Below, one piece after another: positions 16,474 to 26,132 of a DNA stretch of 64,000 nt. How positions within the stretch are numbered: the stretch's first letter is position 1; every line of letters starts with the position of its first letter. The stretch spans positions 2,976,001 to 3,040,000 of the forward strand of contig NZ_CP012479.1 of assembly GCF_001281315.1 (NCBI RefSeq). The letters are read 5' to 3'. The DNA comes from Arthrobacter sp. ERGS1:01. Lineage in GTDB: Bacteria; Actinomycetota; Actinomycetes; Actinomycetales; Micrococcaceae. A program made the position numbers and the translations under genes. A model generated the notes under the pieces. The model searched no databases and was not told the origin of the DNA. It was given only the letters and a program-made list of their open reading frames with translations.

Positions 16474-17169
16474 TTAGGTCCGGTGGGGTAGATCCAGCCA
16501 TTGCGGGGCCAGCCGTTGGAAGTCCCTCGGGTCCAGCAGGGCCGCCCCTTCGGGGATGCTCCCAAGGAACGGTTTTCCCCAGGCGCGCAGGCTGTCCCGG
16601 TTGCTGAGGTCGATGTCCGACGGCGCAGCGGGCCAGGAGCCGACCACGAGGGCCGGTGCGGGCAGCCCGCGGTGCTGCAACGCCTCGAGGGTCAGCAGGG
16701 TGTGGTTGAGCGTGCCGAGCCCGCTGCGGCACGTCACCACGATGCCCGGGCGGACTCCGCCGGGCGTGGCCGCGGCCAGATCGGCGATGGTGTGCCCGGC
16801 GTCGTCGAGTTCAACGAGCAGTCCGCCGGCGCCCTCCACCAGCACGTGGTCGTGCCCTTGCGCCAAGTCGGCAATGTGCGCCACATGGTCCGCGAGCTTG
16901 GGCAGCGTCCGGTTTTCGCGCAGCGCCGCGGCCGCGGGCGCCATCGGGTGCAACAGCCGGACCCCTTCGCGGACCGTCGCGACTCCGCAAAGCCGGACCG
17001 CCTCGTCCATATCCCCGTGCCCGTCCGGGGCAACGCCGGTCTGGGTCGGTTTGTAAACGGCCACGGTGGCGCCGCCTGCCAGCAGTGCCGCGGCGAGGGC
17101 CGCCGTCGTGATGGTCTTGCCGACGTCGGTGTCCGTGCCGGTGACATAGGTGATGGCGGGCAGTTTCAT
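16474..17169 (-). CDS. bioD: Dethiobiotin synthetase
   Basis: The product is 231 residues. It closes the ureido ring of dethiobiotin from DAPA, CO2 and ATP. The P-loop variant GTDTDVGKT is at the N-terminus, VEGAGGLLVEL mid-protein and the nucleotide-base loop VGSWP later. The ATG at 17169 overlaps the P450 stop as ATGA, which marks translational coupling and fixes the start. It is the last gene of the biotin operon. Confidence 0.95.
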   Translation of the reverse strand: MKLPAITYVTGTDTDVGKTITTAALAAALLAGGATVAVYKPTQTGVAPDGHGDMDEAVRLCGVATVREGVRLLHPMAPAAAALRENRTLPKLADHVAHIADLAQGHDHVLVEGAGGLLVELDDAGHTIADLAAATPGGVRPGIVVTCRSGLGTLNHTLLTLEALQHRGLPAPALVVGSWPAAPSDIDLSNRDSLRAWGKPFLGSIPEGAALLDPRDFQRLAPQWLDLPHRT

Positions 17170-18254
17170 GGAGATCCCTCGTTCGGGTGGTGTGCGGTCA
17201 CGGTCAGCGGTGATTGGAAGGACAGCAGCCGCAGCCACCCGGGATCGGGCCCAAAGGGTTGCAGGCGCGGCAGGGCGCGGGCGGTTTCCTCGACCACCAG
17301 GGCGGTTTCCAGCTCGGCCAGCTTGGCGCCCAGGCAACGGTGCAGGCCGTGGCCAAACGCGAGTGAATACGCCGTGGGCGCTGCGTCGGCCGGGTGCCGC
17401 CCCGTCAGCTCCAGCAGGATCTCCGCCCCGGCGGGGACTTCCAGGGTGCCCACGCGGGTGTCCCGGAGCGCGGCCCGCCGCCAGGTGTGGACCGAGGATT
17501 CCGTGGCCAGCACCGCGCGTACATGGGCGCGGGCTGCGTCCGGTTCCGCCAGCAACGCCCAGCCGTCCGGGGCGTGGAGCCCGCGGTACAGCGCCGTGTT
17601 GATCAGCTGCGCCGTGGTCTCCTGGCCCGCAATGACCAGGAAGTAGCCCAGCGAACAGACCTCGGCCTGGCTGAGCCCGGCGGCGTCGAGCACGCCAAAC
17701 AGCGAATCCGTGCCGCGGGCCGCCGCGGCCTCGTCACGGAGCCACCCGTAGAATTCCGCGGCACTGCGGGCCAACACCAGTTGCCGCTCCGGATCGGGCC
17801 AGCCCCAGAACAGCTCCAGTGAGTCCTGGCTCCAGCGCTTCAACAACTCCAACTCCGGGGTTGCCTGCCCCGTCAGCTCCGCCATGACGACGGGCGGGAT
17901 GTGCCGGCCCACGGCGTCGGCCAGGTCCACATGGCCGCGTTCAAGGGCGACGCCGGTCGCGGCCAGCCGCTGCCGGGCCAGCTCCCGCACGCGGGGCGCC
18001 ACGGCGGACACCTTGGCGGGCGTGAAGAACCGGGCCACCATGGTGCGGACGGCACGGTGCCGGTCCCCCGTGGCCGAGGCCAGGACGGGCGGCAGGGCAA
18101 AGCGCGCCTTGCTCAGGATCCGCAGGGTGGCCGGTGCCAGCGGAACTACCGAGGTGAGCGCGTTGGTGGGGGCAAAGTCCTCCGTGCGGCGCATGATGTC
18201 CCGGACCTGCCCGGGATCGCCGATGACCGCATAATCCATGCCTGCGTAGTTCAT
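17166..18254 (-). CDS. Compact cytochrome P450 in the biotin operon (possible BioI-like role)
   Basis: The product is 362 residues and starts at an ATGA overlap with bioF. It has a C-helix HRAVR, an I-helix AGQETT (209-214) and a heme loop FGHGLHRCLG (300-309, ligand C307). The K-helix ExxR motif is absent: the aligned positions read AVLA (247-250) before TESSVHTWRR. The following meander (F-x-P-x-R) is also shortened. About 40 N-terminal residues usual for P450s are missing. In Bacillus, the P450 BioI in the biotin operon cleaves acyl-ACP to give the pimeloyl group; a similar role here is inference from position. Confidence 0.85.
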   Translation of the reverse strand: MNYAGMDYAVIGDPGQVRDIMRRTEDFAPTNALTSVVPLAPATLRILSKARFALPPVLASATGDRHRAVRTMVARFFTPAKVSAVAPRVRELARQRLAATGVALERGHVDLADAVGRHIPPVVMAELTGQATPELELLKRWSQDSLELFWGWPDPERQLVLARSAAEFYGWLRDEAAAARGTDSLFGVLDAAGLSQAEVCSLGYFLVIAGQETTAQLINTALYRGLHAPDGWALLAEPDAARAHVRAVLATESSVHTWRRAALRDTRVGTLEVPAGAEILLELTGRHPADAAPTAYSLAFGHGLHRCLGAKLAELETALVVEETARALPRLQPFGPDPGWLRLLSFQSPLTVTAHHPNEGSP

Positions 18255-19396
18255 GCCGGGACCTCTTGGAGCCCGGATTCCAGCGCCCGGTTCACCGAGG
18301 CAGCGGCCCGCCGGAGCTCCGCATCCGTGAGGTTGGCCCGGGCCGTGAGCCGCACCCGGGACACGCCGTCGGGCACGCTGGGTGGCCGGAAACAGCCGAC
18401 GGCAACACCGGCTGCGCGCAAGGCGGCGGTCACGGTTGCGGCGCGCTCGGGCGAACCGACGGGGATGGACTGCACGGCCCCGGCCGACGGCTCCGTGCCG
18501 CACGCGAGCGCCAGCACCTGCGCGTTGCGGAGGACGCGGTGGGCGAGTTCCGGTTCGGCCAGCACGATCCCGGCCGCCTCGGCCGCTGCCGCCGCGGCCG
18601 CCGGTGCCAGGGCGGTGTCGAAGATGAAGGTCCTGGCCGTGTTCACCAGGTGCTCACGCAACAGGGTTGAGCCCAGGACGGCGCCGCCCTGCGAGCCAAG
18701 CGCCTTGGACAATGTAGCCGTGACGGCAACATGGCGCGTACCGGCCAGCCCGGCCGCATGCACCGCACCGCGGCCGTCCCCCGCGACACCGATCCCATGG
18801 GCCTCGTCCACCAGCAGGAGCGCATCGAACTCCGCGCAGAGTGCTGCCGCCTCGGCCAGCGGGGCGGCGTCGCCCAACACCGAATAGATGGATTCCAGCA
18901 CCACGACGGCCCGCGGCTGGCCGCGTGCGGCCAACGCCGTCGCAACTGCGGCCAGATCGTTGTGGGGCACCTCGACGGCCTCGGAACGGGACAGCCTGAT
19001 GCCATCCAGCAGGGAGGCATGGACGTGGGCATCGTAAATGAACAAGGTGCCGGGTCCGCCCAGCGCCGTCAGCACGCCAAGGTTTGCCGTGTATCCACTG
19101 GAAAATGCCAGGGCCGCATCCTGTCCGGTGAGCCGGCACAGCGCCCGTTCGAGTCCCTGGTGGGCGCCGGTGGTGCCGCACACCACCCGGGACGCGCGGG
19201 CTCCCGTGCCGTGTTCGTCCGTCGCCCGGGCGGCGGCGGCCGCAAGGCGGGGATCGCCGGCAAGGCCCAGGTAGTCGTTGGAGGCGAGGTCGATCAGCCC
19301 GGCCTGCGGTTCCGTGCGGCGCACGAGTCCGCGCCGCACCCGGACCGCGGCCCGTGAGCGCAACCAGGAATCCATGGCCGTTTCCGTGACCGCCAT
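18251..19396 (-). CDS. bioF: 8-amino-7-oxononanoate synthase
   Basis: The product is 381 residues. It condenses pimeloyl-CoA or pimeloyl-ACP with alanine to form KAPA, using PLP. SNDYLGL, DEAHGIG and the PLP lysine in TLSKALGSQGG are present. The ATG at 19396 overlaps the bioA stop (TGATG), and its own stop overlaps the P450 start (ATGA). The frame continues far upstream, but only as the antisense-like shadow of bioA. Confidence 0.95.
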   Translation of the reverse strand: MAVTETAMDSWLRSRAAVRVRRGLVRRTEPQAGLIDLASNDYLGLAGDPRLAAAAARATDEHGTGARASRVVCGTTGAHQGLERALCRLTGQDAALAFSSGYTANLGVLTALGGPGTLFIYDAHVHASLLDGIRLSRSEAVEVPHNDLAAVATALAARGQPRAVVVLESIYSVLGDAAPLAEAAALCAEFDALLLVDEAHGIGVAGDGRGAVHAAGLAGTRHVAVTATLSKALGSQGGAVLGSTLLREHLVNTARTFIFDTALAPAAAAAAAEAAGIVLAEPELAHRVLRNAQVLALACGTEPSAGAVQSIPVGSPERAATVTAALRAAGVAVGCFRPPSVPDGVSRVRLTARANLTDAELRRAAASVNRALESGLQEVPA

Positions 19397-20769
19397 CAGC
19401 CGTGCACCCGGGCCACCGCGGCGTGGATTCCGGCACCGATCGCGGCGATGTCCTCGGCCGTGCTCACGTACGGCGGCATCGTATAGACCAGGTTCCGGAA
19501 GGGGCGCACCCACACGCCATGCTCCAGGGCTGCGCGGGTCACGGCCGGGACATCGACGGGGCCGGACAGCTCGACGACGCCCACGGCACCGAGCGTGCGC
19601 ACGTCCCGGACGGAAGCCAGCCCGGCGGCCGGAGCCAGCGCGGCGGCCAGCCCCTCCCCGACCCGGGCAACCTGGCCCTGCCAGCCGGCCGAAGCCAGCA
19701 GTTCCAGGGACGCGCCCGCCACGGCGCAGGCCAGCGGGTTGGCCATGAACGTGGGGCCGTGCAGCAGGGAACGCAGCGGCGAGGCGGTGACGACGTCGGC
19801 CACGGCCGCAGAACACAGCATGGCGGCCAGCGTCAGGTAGCCGCCCGTCAAAGACTTGCCCACGCACATGATGTCCGGGACAACGGCGGCCCATTCGACG
19901 GCAAACAGCGTCCCGGTGCGGCCAAACCCGGTCGCGATCTCGTCGCAGATCAGCAGCAGGCCGTTGTCGCTGGCCACGCGCCGGGCGGCGGCGAGCGCGG
20001 CGGGTGCGTAGATGTACATGCCGCCGGCGCCTTGGAGTATGGGCTCCAGGACTATGCCGGCAAGCTCGTCGCGGTGGCGGGCCACCGTTTCCTCGAGGAT
20101 CCCGATCCAGGCCGCCACCTCTGCGGCGTCGGCCACGAGTTCGCCGTCCACCAGCCGGGCGGCGGGCGGGCGGGGCAGGAAGAGTTGCTGGGGAATCACG
20201 GACGGGAAGGCGGCATGCATGCCGTCCACGGGGTCGCACACGCCCATGGCCGCAAAGGTGTCGCCGTGGTAGCCGCCGCGCAGTGCAAGGAAGCGGGTGC
20301 GCCGGGGCCGGCCCATGCCTAACTGGTACTGAAGCGCCAGCTTCAGGGCAACCTCCACGGAAATGGACCCGGAGTCCGCCAGGAACACGTGCGCCAAGCC
20401 CTCCGGTGCCAGGTCGACGAGCCGTTCGGCCAGGTGTACGGCGGGTTCATGCGTGAGGCCGCCGAACATGACATGGCTGAACCGGCCGGCCTGGTCCAGC
20501 AGTGCACGGTCCAGGGCCGGGTGCCGGTAGCCGTGGATCGCCGACCACCACGAACTCATGGCATCAACGGCCTCAAAGGCGGTGCCGTCAGCAGCGGTGA
20601 GGCTCAGCCTCGTGCCCTCCGCTGCGTTCACGGCGAAGGGGGCATCGCCGTCGAGCGGTGAATAAGGGTGCCACAGCAGCCCGCGGTCACGGGCGATGAG
20701 GGACGCGGGAGTCGTTGCCTGTTCCGAGACGGCGGACTCCGGATGCGACAGGAGTGCTCCCCTAGGCAT
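19396..20769 (-). CDS. bioA: Adenosylmethionine-8-amino-7-oxononanoate aminotransferase
   Basis: About 457 residues. It converts KAPA to DAPA with S-adenosylmethionine as amino donor and PLP as cofactor. [25 protein letters not shown], the PLP lysine in VGKSLTGG and [13 protein letters not shown] are typical. I chose ATG 20769, which overlaps the end of bioB by eight bases; the recognisable family region begins about 25 residues later ([12 protein letters not shown]), so a shorter product from a non-ATG codon is possible. Second gene of the operon. Confidence 0.93.
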
Positions 20770-21844
20770 TGGGGGCCATGGCCGTGCCGGCCCCGCGGCG
20801 ACGGATGGCAAGGGACCCGCCCGGGGAGGCGACGGCGTCGTCCGGGTCCTGAGTGCCGGGCTCCCGGCTGCCCAGGACGGTGAAACCGTTGTCCGCAATC
20901 ATCTCGAGGTCGGCCTTGGCCGCCTGGCCCTCGCTGGTCAGGTAGTCGCCCAGGAACAGCGAATTGGCCACCTGCAGGGCCAGCGGCTGGAGCGTGCGCA
21001 GGTGCATCTCGCGCCCGCCGGCCATGCGCAGCTCGGTGTCGGGGCGAGCGAAGCGGACCATGGCCAGGATGCGCAGGCAGGCGGCGGGGGTCAGCAGCCA
21101 AGTCCCTTCCAGGGGGGTGCCGTCGAAGGGCATCAGGAAGTTCACGGGGATGGATTCGCTGCCCAGTGCCCGCAGTGCGAAGACGGCGTCGACGAGGTCG
21201 TTATGGCTTTCGCCCATGCCCACGATGACGCCGGAGCAGGGCGAGAGGCCGGCGTCCTTGGCGTGCTCCACGGTGCGCACGCGGTCGGAAAATTCATGCG
21301 TGGAGCAAATGTCGGCGTACATGGATTCGCTGGTGTTGAGGTTGTGGTTGTAGGCGTCCACCCCCGCGGACTTCAGGCGATCGGCCTGGCCGTCCTTGAG
21401 GATGCCCAGGCAGGCGCACACCTCGACGTGGGGGTTGCCGTCCTTGAGCTCGCGGACCATCCCGGCCACGCGGTCCACGTCGCGATCGCTGGGGCCCTTG
21501 CCGCTGGCCACCATGCAGATGCGCGATGCCCCGGCGCCGATGCCGGTGGCGGCCTGGGCCAGCGCCTCCTCCGGCTTGAGCCAGGTGTACTTCAGGATTT
21601 GGGCGGCGGAGCCCAGGCGCTGCGAACAGTAGGTGCAGTCCTCCGGGCAAAGCCCCGATTTCAGGTTGACGAGGTAGTTCACCTTGACGGTGTTGCCGAA
21701 GTGGGCGCGACGCAAACGTGCAGCGGCCGCCACCACCTCCAGCAGTTGGTCGTCGGTGGATTCGAGGACGGCGAGCGCCTCTTCACGGGTCAGCTCGGCA
21801 CCGGACAGCTGCCGGTCGGCAAGGTCGTTAAAGTAATTGAACAC
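20762..21844 (-). CDS. bioB: Biotin synthase
   Basis: The product is 360 residues. This radical SAM enzyme inserts sulfur into dethiobiotin. The [4Fe-4S] triad CPEDCTYC is at 66-73, with [19 protein letters not shown] and [17 protein letters not shown] further on. The GTG at 21844 lies six bases after CACACT, and the regulator box is centred on the start codon, so the message is probably leaderless. It heads the operon bioB-bioA-bioF-P450-bioD. No bioC or bioH homologue is seen nearby, leaving the pimelate source open. Confidence 0.96.
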
Positions 21845-22505: not shown

Positions 22506-23813
22506 CTAGGCCGCGGTGCGCTGGGCCAGGTGTCCGCGCAGGGTGGTGGCCGTGTACTCCGTGCGGAACAATCCGCGCCGCTGCAGTTGCGGCACCACCA
22601 GCGTCACGAAGTCCTCCAGAGATTCGGGCAGCAGCGGCGGCATCAGGTTGAAACCGTCCGCACCGCCCTCCTCAAACCATTGCTGCATTTGACCGGCCAC
22701 CTCGGCCGGGGTGCCCACCATGGTGGCGTGGCCGCCGCCGGCCGCCAGCCGGCCCAGGAGTTGGCGCACCGTTGGCTGCTCGGTCTCGATGATCCGCAGG
22801 ATCGTGGCGTAGCGGCCCGCCGGCCCCGTGAAGTCCGACGCCGGCACCAGGGCCGGCACGGGAGCGTCAAGCTCCCAGCCGCTGCAGTCGCGTTGGACGA
22901 ACCGGCCCAGTTGGGCCAACGAGGTCTCCACCGGCAGGGCGGCGTCCACGGCGGCTTGCTTGGCCAGCGCCTCCTCCCGGGTGGCGGCAACATAGGTGAC
23001 CAGACCGGGCATGATGGCGACGGCGTCGGGATCCCGCCCGGCCTCGGCGATGCGGCGCTTGACGTCGGCGTAGTACGCCTGGGCGCTGGGCAGGTCATAG
23101 GCCACCGCATACACGCCCTCGGCATAGCTGGCGGCGAGTGCGCGGCCGGGCTCGGAAGCTCCGGCCTGGAACAGCACGGGCCGGCCCTGCGGCGAGCGCG
23201 GCACGTTCAACGGCCCGTCAACACTGAAATGCGCACCTTGGTGGAGCACGGGGCGCACCAGGGACGGATCCGCGTAACGCCCGGCCCGGTCCCGCAGCAG
23301 GGCGTCGCCGTCCCAGGAGTCCCACAGACCCTGTGCAACGTCAATGAATTCGGCGGCCCGGGCGTAGCGCTCCTCGTGCGGCGGCATGGCGGGCATCCCG
23401 TGGTTGCGGGCCTCGGCGTCGAACATGGACGTCACCACGTTCACGCCCATGCGACCGCCGCTGATGTGGTCCAGCGACGCCAGCATGCGGGCGGCGTGGA
23501 ACGGCTCATAGAACGTGGAGGACACCGTGCTGACCAGCCCGATCCGATCGGTGGCCCGGGCAATGGCCGCCAGCATGGTCAGGGGTTCCAGGTGCCACAG
23601 CGGACCACTTGCCGGATCGCCGGCGGACTGGCCGTCGGCGAAGAAGACCGCGTCGAAGAGCCCGCGTTCGGCCACTTGGGCCAGCCGTTCGTAGAAGCGG
23701 ATGTCGCCCAGCTCCGCAATCGGCGAGTCGGGCAGCCGCCAGGCCGCTCCGTGGTGGCCGCAGCCGTGCAGGAAAACGTTCAGGTGCAGTTGCCGGGCGG
23801 ACGTGCCGGGCAT
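22506..23813 (-). CDS. LLM-class flavin-dependent monooxygenase (NtaA/SnaA/DmoA type)
   Basis: The product is 435 residues. The family uses FMNH2 supplied by a reductase to oxidise small organic substrates (nitrilotriacetate, dibenzothiophene sulfone, dimethyl sulfide). LHLNVFLHGCGHHGAAWR at the N-terminus, DAVFFADGQ, SGGRMGVNVVTS and QAGASEPGRALA are the familiar blocks. The ATG at 23813 overlaps the upstream SDR stop (TGATG), so the two are coupled. The transcript carries a TPP riboswitch, which suggests a thiamine-related substrate or need. The actual substrate is unknown. Confidence 0.88.
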   Translation of the reverse strand: MPGTSARQLHLNVFLHGCGHHGAAWRLPDSPIAELGDIRFYERLAQVAERGLFDAVFFADGQSAGDPASGPLWHLEPLTMLAAIARATDRIGLVSTVSSTFYEPFHAARMLASLDHISGGRMGVNVVTSMFDAEARNHGMPAMPPHEERYARAAEFIDVAQGLWDSWDGDALLRDRAGRYADPSLVRPVLHQGAHFSVDGPLNVPRSPQGRPVLFQAGASEPGRALAASYAEGVYAVAYDLPSAQAYYADVKRRIAEAGRDPDAVAIMPGLVTYVAATREEALAKQAAVDAALPVETSLAQLGRFVQRDCSGWELDAPVPALVPASDFTGPAGRYATILRIIETEQPTVRQLLGRLAAGGGHATMVGTPAEVAGQMQQWFEEGGADGFNLMPPLLPESLEDFVTLVVPQLQRRGLFRTEYTATTLRGHLAQRTAA

Positions 23814-24577
23814 CAGTTCATCACCAGTCCGCCGTCGACCATGAGGTTCTGGCCGGTCACCGACCGGGCCCACGGCGAGGCGAAGAACAGCACGGCGTCG
23901 GCGAGCTCGGCCGGCGTCGTGACCCGGCGCAGCGGCGTGGCTGCGGCAATGTAGTCGAACACCTCATCGGGGGTTGCGGCGCTCGCGTCGGTGGTGCGCA
24001 GCAGGCCGCTGGAGACCATGTTGACGCTGATGTTTTCCGGGCCGAGGTCCGCGGCCAGCGTGCGGGTCAGGGACAGCAGCGCCGCCTTTGCCGCCGTGTA
24101 GTCGTGGTACGGCACCACGGGGTTGTGGAACAGGTTGGTGCCGATGTTCACGACCCGGCCAAAGCCGTGCGCTTTCATGCCGGGCAGGGCCGCCTGCGTG
24201 GTGTTCAAGGCACCGCGGACGCTGCCGGAGAACTGGGCGTCAAAGTCGGCCCAGGCGATCCCGGCGGCGGTGGCGCGGGCGTCGCCGTTGAAGGAATACG
24301 CGGCCAGGGCGTTGTTCACGACGGTCGTGACGGGGGCGCCAAAGTGCTGCTCCGCCGCCGCGAACATGGCCGCCACCTCCTCCGGGCTGGTGACGTCACC
24401 CTGCACGGCCAGCGCCCGGTCCGGCCCGGCCTCGGTGGCCAGTTCCCGGGCACCGTCGGCGCTGCTGCGGTAGTTGAGCACCACCTTGGAGCCGGCACCC
24501 AAAAACGCCCGGGCGATGTGGGTGCCCAGGCCGCGGCCGGCACCCGTGACGAGCACTGTTTGTTCTGAAAACTGCAT
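23813..24577 (-). CDS. Short-chain dehydrogenase/reductase under TPP riboswitch control
   Basis: The product is 254 residues, a classical SDR. The cofactor loop TGAGRGLG, NNALAAY, and the catalytic tyrosine and lysine in YTAAK are present; the C-terminus ends MVDGGLVMN. AAGGTGGAG precedes the ATG. It is the first gene after the TPP riboswitch and is coupled to the monooxygenase. It would be annotated by homology as a 3-oxoacyl-ACP reductase, but the control suggests a thiamine-linked role. Confidence 0.88.
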   Translation of the reverse strand: MQFSEQTVLVTGAGRGLGTHIARAFLGAGSKVVLNYRSSADGARELATEAGPDRALAVQGDVTSPEEVAAMFAAAEQHFGAPVTTVVNNALAAYSFNGDARATAAGIAWADFDAQFSGSVRGALNTTQAALPGMKAHGFGRVVNIGTNLFHNPVVPYHDYTAAKAALLSLTRTLAADLGPENISVNMVSSGLLRTTDASAATPDEVFDYIAAATPLRRVTTPAELADAVLFFASPWARSVTGQNLMVDGGLVMN

Positions 24578-24657
24578 GGTACTCCACCTTGAAATAAGGC
24601 GAAAAGATGGGCACGGCGATGCTGCGCCGCGAAAGGCGGGCGCACAAAAACCGGCGG

Positions 24658-24733
24658 GACATCCCTTCGCTAGTGCTAACTAGATCAGGTTCAACGGGTG
24701 TGATTCTCAGCCCCGCAAGGGGCACCCCGTGTC
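24658..24733 (-). promoter_or_regulatory. TPP riboswitch (THI element)
   Basis: On the minus strand the conserved core is complete: GGGGTGCC, CTGAGA, ACCC, GAACCTGATCT, GTTAGCAC and GCGAAGGGA in order. P1 ends GACA/TGTC close it and CCCC-TTGC-GGGG forms the P3 arm. It lies about 80 bases before the SDR start. A GC-rich hairpin at roughly 24628-24647 may be part of the expression platform. Binding of thiamine pyrophosphate is expected to lower expression. Confidence 0.95.
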
Positions 24734-24743
24734 ACTGCCAGCG

Positions 24744-24749
24744 AGTCTA
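24744..24749 (-). promoter_or_regulatory. -10 box of the riboswitch transcript
   Basis: TAGACT on the minus strand lies about ten bases before the riboswitch core. No good -35 is seen. Confidence 0.45.
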
Positions 24750-24771
24750 GCCGAAGCCCGCCGCCGCGCCG

Positions 24772-24840
24772 TTGCTGCGTTCAGCTTGTTACGTCCGGCT
24801 TGGTGCGTTCAGCTAACTATGTCCGGCTCGCTACGTCCGG
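24772..24840. repeat. Imperfect 28-bp tandem repeat
   Basis: Two units of the form TTGsTGCGTTCAGCTnnnTA, each followed by yGTCCGGC, occur at 24772-24799 and 24800-24827, with a partial third reaching into the end of the GNAT-AAA gene. It lies upstream of the riboswitch promoter. Function unknown. Confidence 0.6.
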
Positions 24841-26132
24841 GCCAGGGCGTCGATGTCCTCGAGGAAGTCCGCGGCCACGGCCTCGCTGACGGTGGCCCGG
24901 GTGTCGGCAATGGTCTCCAGGTAGTCGGCGGTGACCGGACCGCGCGGGTCGGTGAGAGGCCCGCCCACCCCGGCATCGACGTCGTACACGGCCTTTTCCA
25001 GGGCACGCTGGGAGGCGCTGCGTGCGGCAAACTCGATATCCGCCGGGGAGAAGCCGCTGCTGGCTGCGACCAGGCCGGCCACATCCACGTGTTCGAGCAC
25101 GGTGTCCGGGATGAAGCGGCACCACATGGCGGTGCGGGCCTCGGCGTCGGGCAGGCCGATGGGGATGACGTAGTCGAAACGGCCGTGGCGCAGGAACGCC
25201 GAATCCAGTGAGCGGATGAAGTTCGTGGCGCACACCAGCAAGCGCCCGGGCTGGTCCCGGAAGGCCGGGATGATCTTCAGCAGCTCGTTGGTCACGCCCT
25301 GCATGGGCGAGGGCGGCTCCCCGGAGCGCTGCGAGGCGATCTCCTCCACCTCATCGATGAACACCACGGCGTGCTCCAGCTCGGCAATGTCCAGGAAGGT
25401 TTGGCGCAGCGCACCGGCCAGGCCGCCGGGCTCCCCCGCCAGCCGGGACGGAAAGACCTCCACGAACGGCCATTCCAGCCGGGACGCGATGGCCTTGGCG
25501 AAGGTGGTCTTGCCGGTGCCGGGCGGGCCGAACAGCACGACGGCGCGCGGCGGCACCACGCCGAACTCCTCGGCGAGCTCGGACTCGGCCAGCGGCAGCA
25601 CGAGCCGGCGTTCCAGCAGTTCCTTCTCCGCCGTCATTCCGGCCACCCGGTGCCACAAGTCCCGCGGCAGCAGCCGGCCGCCCAGCTCTTCCAGGGCGCC
25701 CAGTTCGGCCCGCTGGACCGGGATGCGCCGCTCAAAGTAGCGCAGGTTCTTCTTCACCACGAAGCCGCGGTTGGAAAACGCCTCCACCCGGTTCTCGGTG
25801 TCCGGCATCAGGGCGGAGAGCTTGTTCAGCCCGTGCGCGGCCATGCGGTTTTCGACGGCGGCCAGCAGCGACGTGCCGATCCCCCGGCCGCGGAACTCGG
25901 GCAGCGTGGACAGGAACACGATCCAGCCCTGGTCGTGGGCGGCCCGGCCGACGGCGGCACCCACGATCTGTTCGCCCTGGACGGCCACCACGGCGTGGTC
26001 CTTCTCGCAGGAGGCCAGCACCTCGGACAGGTCATAGACGGGTTCCACCCCGCTGGCGCGCAGGGATTGCCACAGGGACAGGATCCCCTCCACGTCCTGC
26101 GAGTGAAAATCCCGGATCTTCCACGATGTCAT
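24831..26132 (-). CDS. GNAT acetyltransferase fused to an AAA+ ATPase
   Basis: The product is 433 residues with two parts. Residues 1-135 are a GNAT domain with the acetyl-CoA loop RGRGIG (81-86) and NRGFVVKKN. Residues 165-400 are an AAA+ module with Walker A GPPGTGKTT (202-210), Walker B VVFIDEVEEI (D260, E261), sensor-1 ATN and the arginine-rich HGRFD. A C-terminal helical lid follows. The AAA part resembles FtsH/CDC48-type modules. The fusion suggests ATP-driven remodelling coupled to protein or small-molecule acetylation; the target is unknown. ATG at 26132 begins a good family N-terminus. Confidence 0.85.
   Translation of the reverse strand: MTSWKIRDFHSQDVEGILSLWQSLRASGVEPVYDLSEVLASCEKDHAVVAVQGEQIVGAAVGRAAHDQGWIVFLSTLPEFRGRGIGTSLLAAVENRMAAHGLNKLSALMPDTENRVEAFSNRGFVVKKNLRYFERRIPVQRAELGALEELGGRLLPRDLWHRVAGMTAEKELLERRLVLPLAESELAEEFGVVPPRAVVLFGPPGTGKTTFAKAIASRLEWPFVEVFPSRLAGEPGGLAGALRQTFLDIAELEHAVVFIDEVEEIASQRSGEPPSPMQGVTNELLKIIPAFRDQPGRLLVCATNFIRSLDSAFLRHGRFDYVIPIGLPDAEARTAMWCRFIPDTVLEHVDVAGLVAASSGFSPADIEFAARSASQRALEKAVYDVDAGVGGPLTDPRGPVTADYLETIADTRATVSEAVAADFLEDIDALART

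Follow-up and report, generated by a model that had tools for sequence, protein, structure and literature searches.

We analyzed a 64,000-nucleotide stretch of DNA from Arthrobacter sp. ERGS1:01 (contig NZ_CP012479.1, positions 2,976,001–3,040,000; hereafter, the window) in which a thiamine pyrophosphate (TPP) riboswitch precedes two genes, one encoding a short-chain dehydrogenase/reductase (SDR) and the other a luciferase-like monooxygenase (LLM). We conclude that SDR and LLM are almost certainly a thiamine (TPP) regulon pair, and that the pair probably serves salvage of the pyrimidine side of thiamine, 4-amino-5-hydroxymethyl-2-methylpyrimidine (HMP). Observed here are the riboswitch, the gene pair, its conservation, thiamine genes beside it in some relatives, and an association with the absence of thiC. 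A preliminary description of this DNA had proposed a complete THI element ahead of two coupled genes from families with no established role in thiamine metabolism, and each of these points holds within the window. RF00059 is the only Rfam family that matches anywhere in the window at its gathering score (cmscan); the match (24739–24645, minus strand) scores 69.4 bits against a gathering score of 54.3 (E = 1.4e-11) and spans model positions 1–105, so the covariance search that the description had called for returned a full aptamer. The aptamer ends 67 nt before the SDR ATG at 24577, and the LLM ATG begins with the final A of the SDR stop, a 1-base overlap (TGATG). The features of the locus, all on the minus strand, are as follows.

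24645–24739 (minus strand): TPP riboswitch aptamer, RF00059, full model, 69.4 bits (cmscan).
24660–24670 (minus strand): aptamer 3′ strand, GCGAAGGGATG, which would pair over 11 bp with 24599–24609 in the proposed switch helix.
24599–24609 (minus strand): proposed anti-aptamer segment, CATCTTTTCGC, which ends about 22 nt 5′ of the SDR ATG.
24582–24590 (minus strand): SDR Shine-Dalgarno region, AAGGTGGAG, which can pair with TTTCGCCTT, the end of the anti-aptamer segment.
23813–24577 (minus strand): SDR oxidoreductase, 254 aa, NF006393/PRK08642 (NCBIfam, 422.7 bits; cut-off 292).
22506–23813 (minus strand): LLM, a flavin mononucleotide (FMN)-dependent monooxygenase, 435 aa, NtaA/DmoA subfamily TIGR03860 (NCBIfam, 528.6 bits; cut-off 279.7).

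The link between the riboswitch and the SDR is conserved in the host's family and well beyond it, and the preliminary description thereby survives one of its own refuting tests, that relatives should lack this link. The SDR is present in 42 of 149 genomes of that family (Micrococcaceae, judging by the names of relatives, among which the nearest named protein comes from Specibacter sp. at 91%), in 43 copies, and 41 of these copies have a TPP core on their own strand no more than 350 nt upstream. A model of the element (R1) was built from 20 elements of this family. The remaining two copies are both in genome G035, where the TPP element lies about 2.4–2.6 kb upstream and the intervening genes are thiM, thiE, and thiD (L048) or thiE and thiD (L049), as identified by clustering with Pfam-checked genes. 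The genes around the module often differ from genus to genus within the family, which indicates that the module holds together as a unit. The genus that includes Rhodococcus ruber IEGM 1391 (L146, G192) has the SDR in 36 of 37 genomes, and in each of the 36 a TPP match lies at most 400 nt upstream. A ranking of 577 confirmed stretches against a Marinobacter protein supplied its 80 best as named loci; in this non-random sample, a TPP element stands just 5′ of the SDR in 68 (by pattern and Rfam). Gamma-, Beta-, and Alphaproteobacteria account for about three quarters of these 80 loci and Actinomycetota for the others, apart from one with a Sporosarcina title. An LLM matched in 210 plasmid records, 205 of which are less than 60% identical; the three examined, all large plasmids (L169, L170, and L171, from Pseudochrobactrum, Rhodococcus, and Mesobacillus), carry the SDR and LLM with a riboswitch (65.7–82.0 bits). 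The host genome (G000, 4.94 Mb) contains four TPP matches, of which one, at 48.0 bits, falls below the cut-off. With four matches in 4.9 Mb, the finding of a TPP core upstream of 41 of 43 SDR copies is not due to chance, and chance placement of the riboswitch is ruled out by this count together with those for the Rhodococcus genus (36/36) and the named loci (68/80).

The 12 named loci that have no TPP element before the SDR comprise seven of Achromobacter type together with L107, L110, L144, L157, and L159. The Achromobacter-type loci (L109, L114, L117, L122, L123, L126, and L128) keep the SDR-LLM pair and a divergent, TPP-controlled symporter. L145, titled Sporosarcina beigongshangi and counted among the 80, has 66% GC, a bioB-like neighbor, and actinobacterial-looking surroundings; the GC content and the bioB-like gene make it likely that this is a contaminant contig. 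Three pairs of loci are, by their length, identical contigs (L135/L058, L148/L039, and L160/L037), and the 123 loci therefore represent about 120 distinct ones.

The leader between the aptamer and the SDR can form two mutually exclusive pairings, which fits an OFF switch acting on translation. In the window, the 11 bp helix between the aptamer 3′ strand and the anti-aptamer segment has a score that is reached by 1% of shuffles, and the pairing of the Shine-Dalgarno region with the end of the same segment has a P value of 0.014 (the P values for leader pairings are from base shuffles and are uncorrected for multiple tests). A downstream partner for the aptamer 3′ strand surpasses shuffles (P ≤ 0.05) in 26 of 41 leaders from the family; in 19 of those 26 the partner, often CATCTTTTCGC or GCATCCTTTCGC, ends 20–27 nt 5′ of the SDR start. 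Of 21 leaders examined for the alternative, 12 have a same-segment pairing near the Shine-Dalgarno sequence that is predicted at P ≤ 0.05. On the strength of these predicted pairings, TPP would switch the gene pair OFF. One terminator-like hairpin with a weak T run (24631–24612; 0.2 expected) overlaps the anti-aptamer segment, and control may for this reason have a transcriptional component besides the translational switch. The folding energy of the whole leader gave no signal (z = −0.20). The −10 box that the preliminary description gave with the element was not recovered: a sigma-70 consensus scan of 24560–24860 returned 0 promoter-like sites, although in an actinobacterium a negative scan of this kind carries little weight. 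Further upstream, short degenerate repeats (gcgttcagct... tacgtccggct...) at 24765–24845 lie between the riboswitch and a single gene (24831–26132, minus strand) in which a GNAT acetyltransferase domain is fused to a proteasome-activating-type AAA ATPase.

The distribution of thiC and thiG indicates which half of thiamine the pair is concerned with. The host has thiG and no match to thiC, and so should make thiazole and need pyrimidine from outside. Across the family, thiC is present in 55 and thiG in 97 of 149 genomes. Among the genomes with thiG, the SDR is found in 26 of 47 that lack thiC and in 9 of 50 that have it (Fisher P = 1.5e-4), and the association persists when genomes are permuted within genera (P = 0.008). 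In the full set of 149, thiC is present in 9 of 42 SDR carriers versus 46 of 107 other genomes (P = 0.015), and thiG in 35 of 42 versus 62 of 107 (P = 0.004, uncorrected for kinship). The Rhodococcus ruber genus has thiG in 37 of 37 genomes, thiC in 0 of 37, and the SDR in 36 of 37. Rhodococcus ruber ZM07, a strain of a species in that genus, is described as a thiamine auxotroph (PMC10269752), which makes salvage likelier than de novo synthesis, provided that ZM07 carries the pair as nearly all of its genus does. According to two other papers, R. equi and R. parequi have lost thiC and are auxotrophs, and R. erythropolis has thiC (PMC2947987; PMC11893733).

These counts bear on two other explanations. 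In the first, the pair would act on the thiazole side, converting an oxidized or altered hydroxyethylthiazole (HET), such as thiazole acetaldehyde, to HET for ThiM. The occurrence of thiM in the same cluster or divergent from it in several genomes is in keeping with this proposal, as are seven SDR-containing family genomes that lack thiG and would need HET. The SDR nevertheless goes with thiG and with the absence of thiC, and the Rhodococcus ruber genus retains the SDR in 36 genomes while having thiG throughout; because its commoner occurrence with thiG speaks against a thiazole role, we regard this explanation as unlikely. In the second, the pair would be an oxygen-dependent replacement for ThiC that makes HMP de novo with host metabolites. 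The inverse relation to thiC within genera is what such a replacement would give, and in the Rhodococcus ruber genus thiC is in none of the 37 genomes and the SDR in 36. Set against it are the reported auxotrophy of ZM07, provided again that this strain carries the pair, the retention of thiC in 33 of 50 named carriers, and the transporter-type genes that accompany the pair in many loci. A claim that the pair replaces ThiC de novo was rejected as too strong on the first two of these grounds, and the explanation as a whole is very improbable.

The gene neighborhoods point to thiamine supply in some carriers. Genes for hydroxyethylthiazole kinase, thiamine phosphate synthase, and phosphomethylpyrimidine kinase lie directly 3′ of the SDR in L041. 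In L067, a second TPP element follows the LLM and is itself followed by ThiM, ThiE, and ThiD genes grouped around an MFS-like gene (assigned by reading), whereas in L071 the LLM is followed by a YkoE-type gene (PF09819; all otherwise by Pfam). In these relatives, RF00059 elements precede thiamine-related genes, with the SDR clustered with thiM, thiE, thiD, or ykoE, and in most carriers no thi gene adjoins the pair. Of the 123 loci, 46 have a symporter cluster nearby (Pfam SSF in the three members scanned), in many cases preceded by a TPP element of its own. In the host, the weakest TPP match (48.0 bits) precedes a thiO-thiG unit, for which Pfam gives a DAO-family oxidoreductase that fits ThiO, along with a divergent ThiE, and the other three precede a YkoE-type gene, a ThiD-TenA fusion (TenA by Pfam, ThiD by reading), and the SDR-LLM pair. 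We found no significant relation between the SDR and TenA (TenA in 32 of 42 carriers versus 68 of 107 others, P = 0.18), and mutual exclusion of the two was rejected. Elsewhere in the window, biotin-type genes (bioD-, bioF-, bioA-, and bioB-like by reading) lie at 16474–21844 (minus strand), with a cytochrome P450-like open reading frame (17166–18503, by reading) among them. Genes like bioB adjoin the module also in L036, L038, and L145.

Pyrimidine salvage is the reading that we favor, on the grounds of the thiC absence, the thiM, thiE, thiD, ykoE, and sodium symporter neighbors, and the OFF-like leaders. The preliminary description had listed salvage, breakdown, a precursor pathway, and uptake as possible roles; the salvage part of that list is strengthened, and nutritional breakdown loses ground. 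Breakdown of thiamine for carbon, nitrogen, or sulfur would suit the LLM, several of whose relatives (NtaA, EmoA, DszA/BdsA, and RcaE, all found as matches) are catabolic. A TPP OFF switch, which the leader anatomy fits, would however shut such a pathway when thiamine is plentiful, and the thi gene neighbors likewise do not suit it; this makes breakdown highly improbable. The pair might alternatively act on a thiamine antivitamin or on damaged thiamine, modifying or detoxifying it so as to protect TPP enzymes and not to supply HMP. Redox enzymes of broad families, a patchy distribution with the SDR in 42 of 149 genomes of the family and with plasmid copies, and carriers in many soil and marine genera would all be consistent with such a function, but the association with thiC absence and the ThiD, ThiE, ThiM, YkoE, and sodium symporter neighbors point to supply, and we think detoxification improbable.

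The SDR and LLM usually occur together. The LLM was found in 113 of 123 loci (tblastn), nearly always directly 3′ of the SDR, and the divergence of the two proteins is correlated (Mantel r = 0.79, a value reached in 0 of 999 permutations; 102 loci, leaving out three duplicates, truncated copies, and copies with stops). In L041 the LLM is preceded by its own TPP element and lies about 2.7 kb upstream, and in G234 it is elsewhere in the genome (68% identity), again with a TPP element of its own before it. “Nitrilotriacetate monooxygenase” is a family label for this LLM. Its predicted fold has CmoJ (6ask) as the best solved match (40% identity, TM 0.82), and RcaE (5w48) is 32% identical; the closest solved structures are CmoJ/YtnJ, BdsA, a nitrilotriacetate monooxygenase homologue, and the riboflavin lyase RcaE, and none of the 50 structural matches listed has a thiamine compound in its title. 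Enzymes of the LLM family use FMNH2 and O2 to cleave C-S and C-N bonds; NtaA/EmoA and riboflavin lyase cleave C-N bonds. The SDR, whose ATG is preceded by a plausible Shine-Dalgarno sequence (AAGGTGGAG), is labeled “3-oxoacyl-ACP reductase” in public records, which is its name only, and its relatives in the PDB are 24%–36% identical among the matches listed. It departs from the classical catalytic Asn-Ser-Tyr-Lys pattern: Tyr160 and Lys164 (Tyr-x3-Lys) are kept, and Thr147 replaces Ser. Position 147 is Ser in 1 of 12 aligned sequences, and Thr is found also in 5t2u.

These observations suggest a mechanism. When TPP is bound, the aptamer 3′ strand would be closed and the leader segment CATCTTTTCGCCTT would cover the SDR Shine-Dalgarno sequence (OFF); without TPP, CATCTTTTCGCCTT would pair with the aptamer strand, SDR translation would start, and translation of the LLM would be coupled to it through the TGATG overlap. 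The LLM, with O2 and reduced FMN, might then cut a thiamine-derived or thiamine-like compound at its pyrimidine-CH2-X bond, leaving a pyrimidine 5-aldehyde that the SDR would reduce to HMP for ThiD and ThiE. An SDR without its LLM could still act on aldehyde supplied from outside, which would fit the loss of the LLM in some carriers. This chemistry, release of a pyrimidine aldehyde by the LLM and its reduction to HMP by the SDR, is a tentative proposal with the odds against it. The explanation taken whole, a TPP-repressed HMP-salvage pair with the switch and chemistry as proposed, has in our estimate an even chance of being correct.

A number of findings weigh against this explanation. Among the named loci, thiC is present in 33 of the 50 SDR-containing genomes taken for this count (of 80), and in the family 21 of 47 genomes with thiG and without thiC lack the SDR, and seven SDR-containing genomes lack thiG too. 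The host also has TenA. The anti-aptamer helix has P > 0.05 in 15 of 41 leaders, and 9 of 21 leaders do not reach P ≤ 0.05 for the Shine-Dalgarno pairing. The LLM family spans C-N, C-S, and other oxidations, and the proposed substrate is conjectural; in the SDR, the position of the catalytic Asn holds Ser, Thr, or Val. A genome-wide search for an LLM at E ≤ 1e-90, restricted to SDR carriers with no neighboring LLM, found none in G079, G145, G155, G183, and G235, in which the SDR is still behind a TPP element, and none in G233, G191, G197, and G198, which have no TPP element either (the assemblies G233 and G235 derive from metagenomes). The LLM is degenerate in G034 and G119, with only pieces at the locus, and both G035 copies are likewise in pieces. 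Because SDR copies occur without an LLM, the SDR, which is the constant part of the module, may have a role of its own. The SDR genes of L144, L157, and L159 (Pseudoxanthomonas, Stenotrophomonas, and Luteimonas) have neither a riboswitch nor, at E ≤ 1e-90, an LLM anywhere in the genome; a second role of the SDR family is possible from these copies.

A 2002 survey of THI elements reportedly included a thiamin-regulated short-chain oxidoreductase (“oarX”), which may belong to the same family as the present SDR, and the link between the SDR and THI elements may already have been tabulated. Among the papers listed in a literature search covering titles and the beginnings of abstracts, we found no work on the SDR-LLM pair, and no paper searched contains both “oarX” and “thiamin.” In the main text of PMC3766115, “dehydrogenase,” “monooxygenase,” and “oarX” occur 0 times, and the portion of PMC10470507 consulted has no passage on such a pair.

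HMP auxotrophy is described as the commonest thiamine auxotrophy and as found in many marine microbes (PMC11452348). How auxotrophs obtain pyrimidine is an open ecological question, which a widespread TPP-controlled pair that goes with a lack of thiC makes testable. The pair may conceivably, though we consider it doubtful, provide an oxygen-dependent route to HMP from thiamine-derived compounds, shared across phyla together with its riboswitch and sparing ThiC where such compounds are available. If pyrimidine salvage is correct, the name “3-oxoacyl-ACP reductase” in public records would be replaced, and there would be a hint as to how many actinobacteria with thiG and without thiC cope.

Compared with known systems, the riboswitch does not differ from RF00059, in that the aptamer is complete; it is the controlled genes that are unusual. 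The LLM shares the TIGR03860 family and the predicted fold of NtaA/EmoA, CmoJ/YtnJ, DszA/BdsA, DmoA, and RcaE, and is about 31%–40% identical to full-length relatives of this type, a level of identity that does not fix the substrate. ThiXYZ, YlmB, and TenA salvage thiamine degradation products by way of N-formyl-4-amino-5-aminomethyl-2-methylpyrimidine (FAMP), TenA acting by hydrolysis. FAMP is reported to be a thiamine degradation product that is used by cells (PMC10470507). Like TenA in FAMP salvage, the pair would return a pyrimidine product to HMP, and TenA is also in the host TPP regulon; unlike the hydrolytic TenA, the pair consists of an FMN monooxygenase and an SDR. The SAR11 HMP transporter ThiV is a TPP-controlled sodium:solute symporter (PMC11452348), and the symporter found next to the pair in 46 of the 123 loci is assigned to the same Pfam family (SSF, in the three members scanned).

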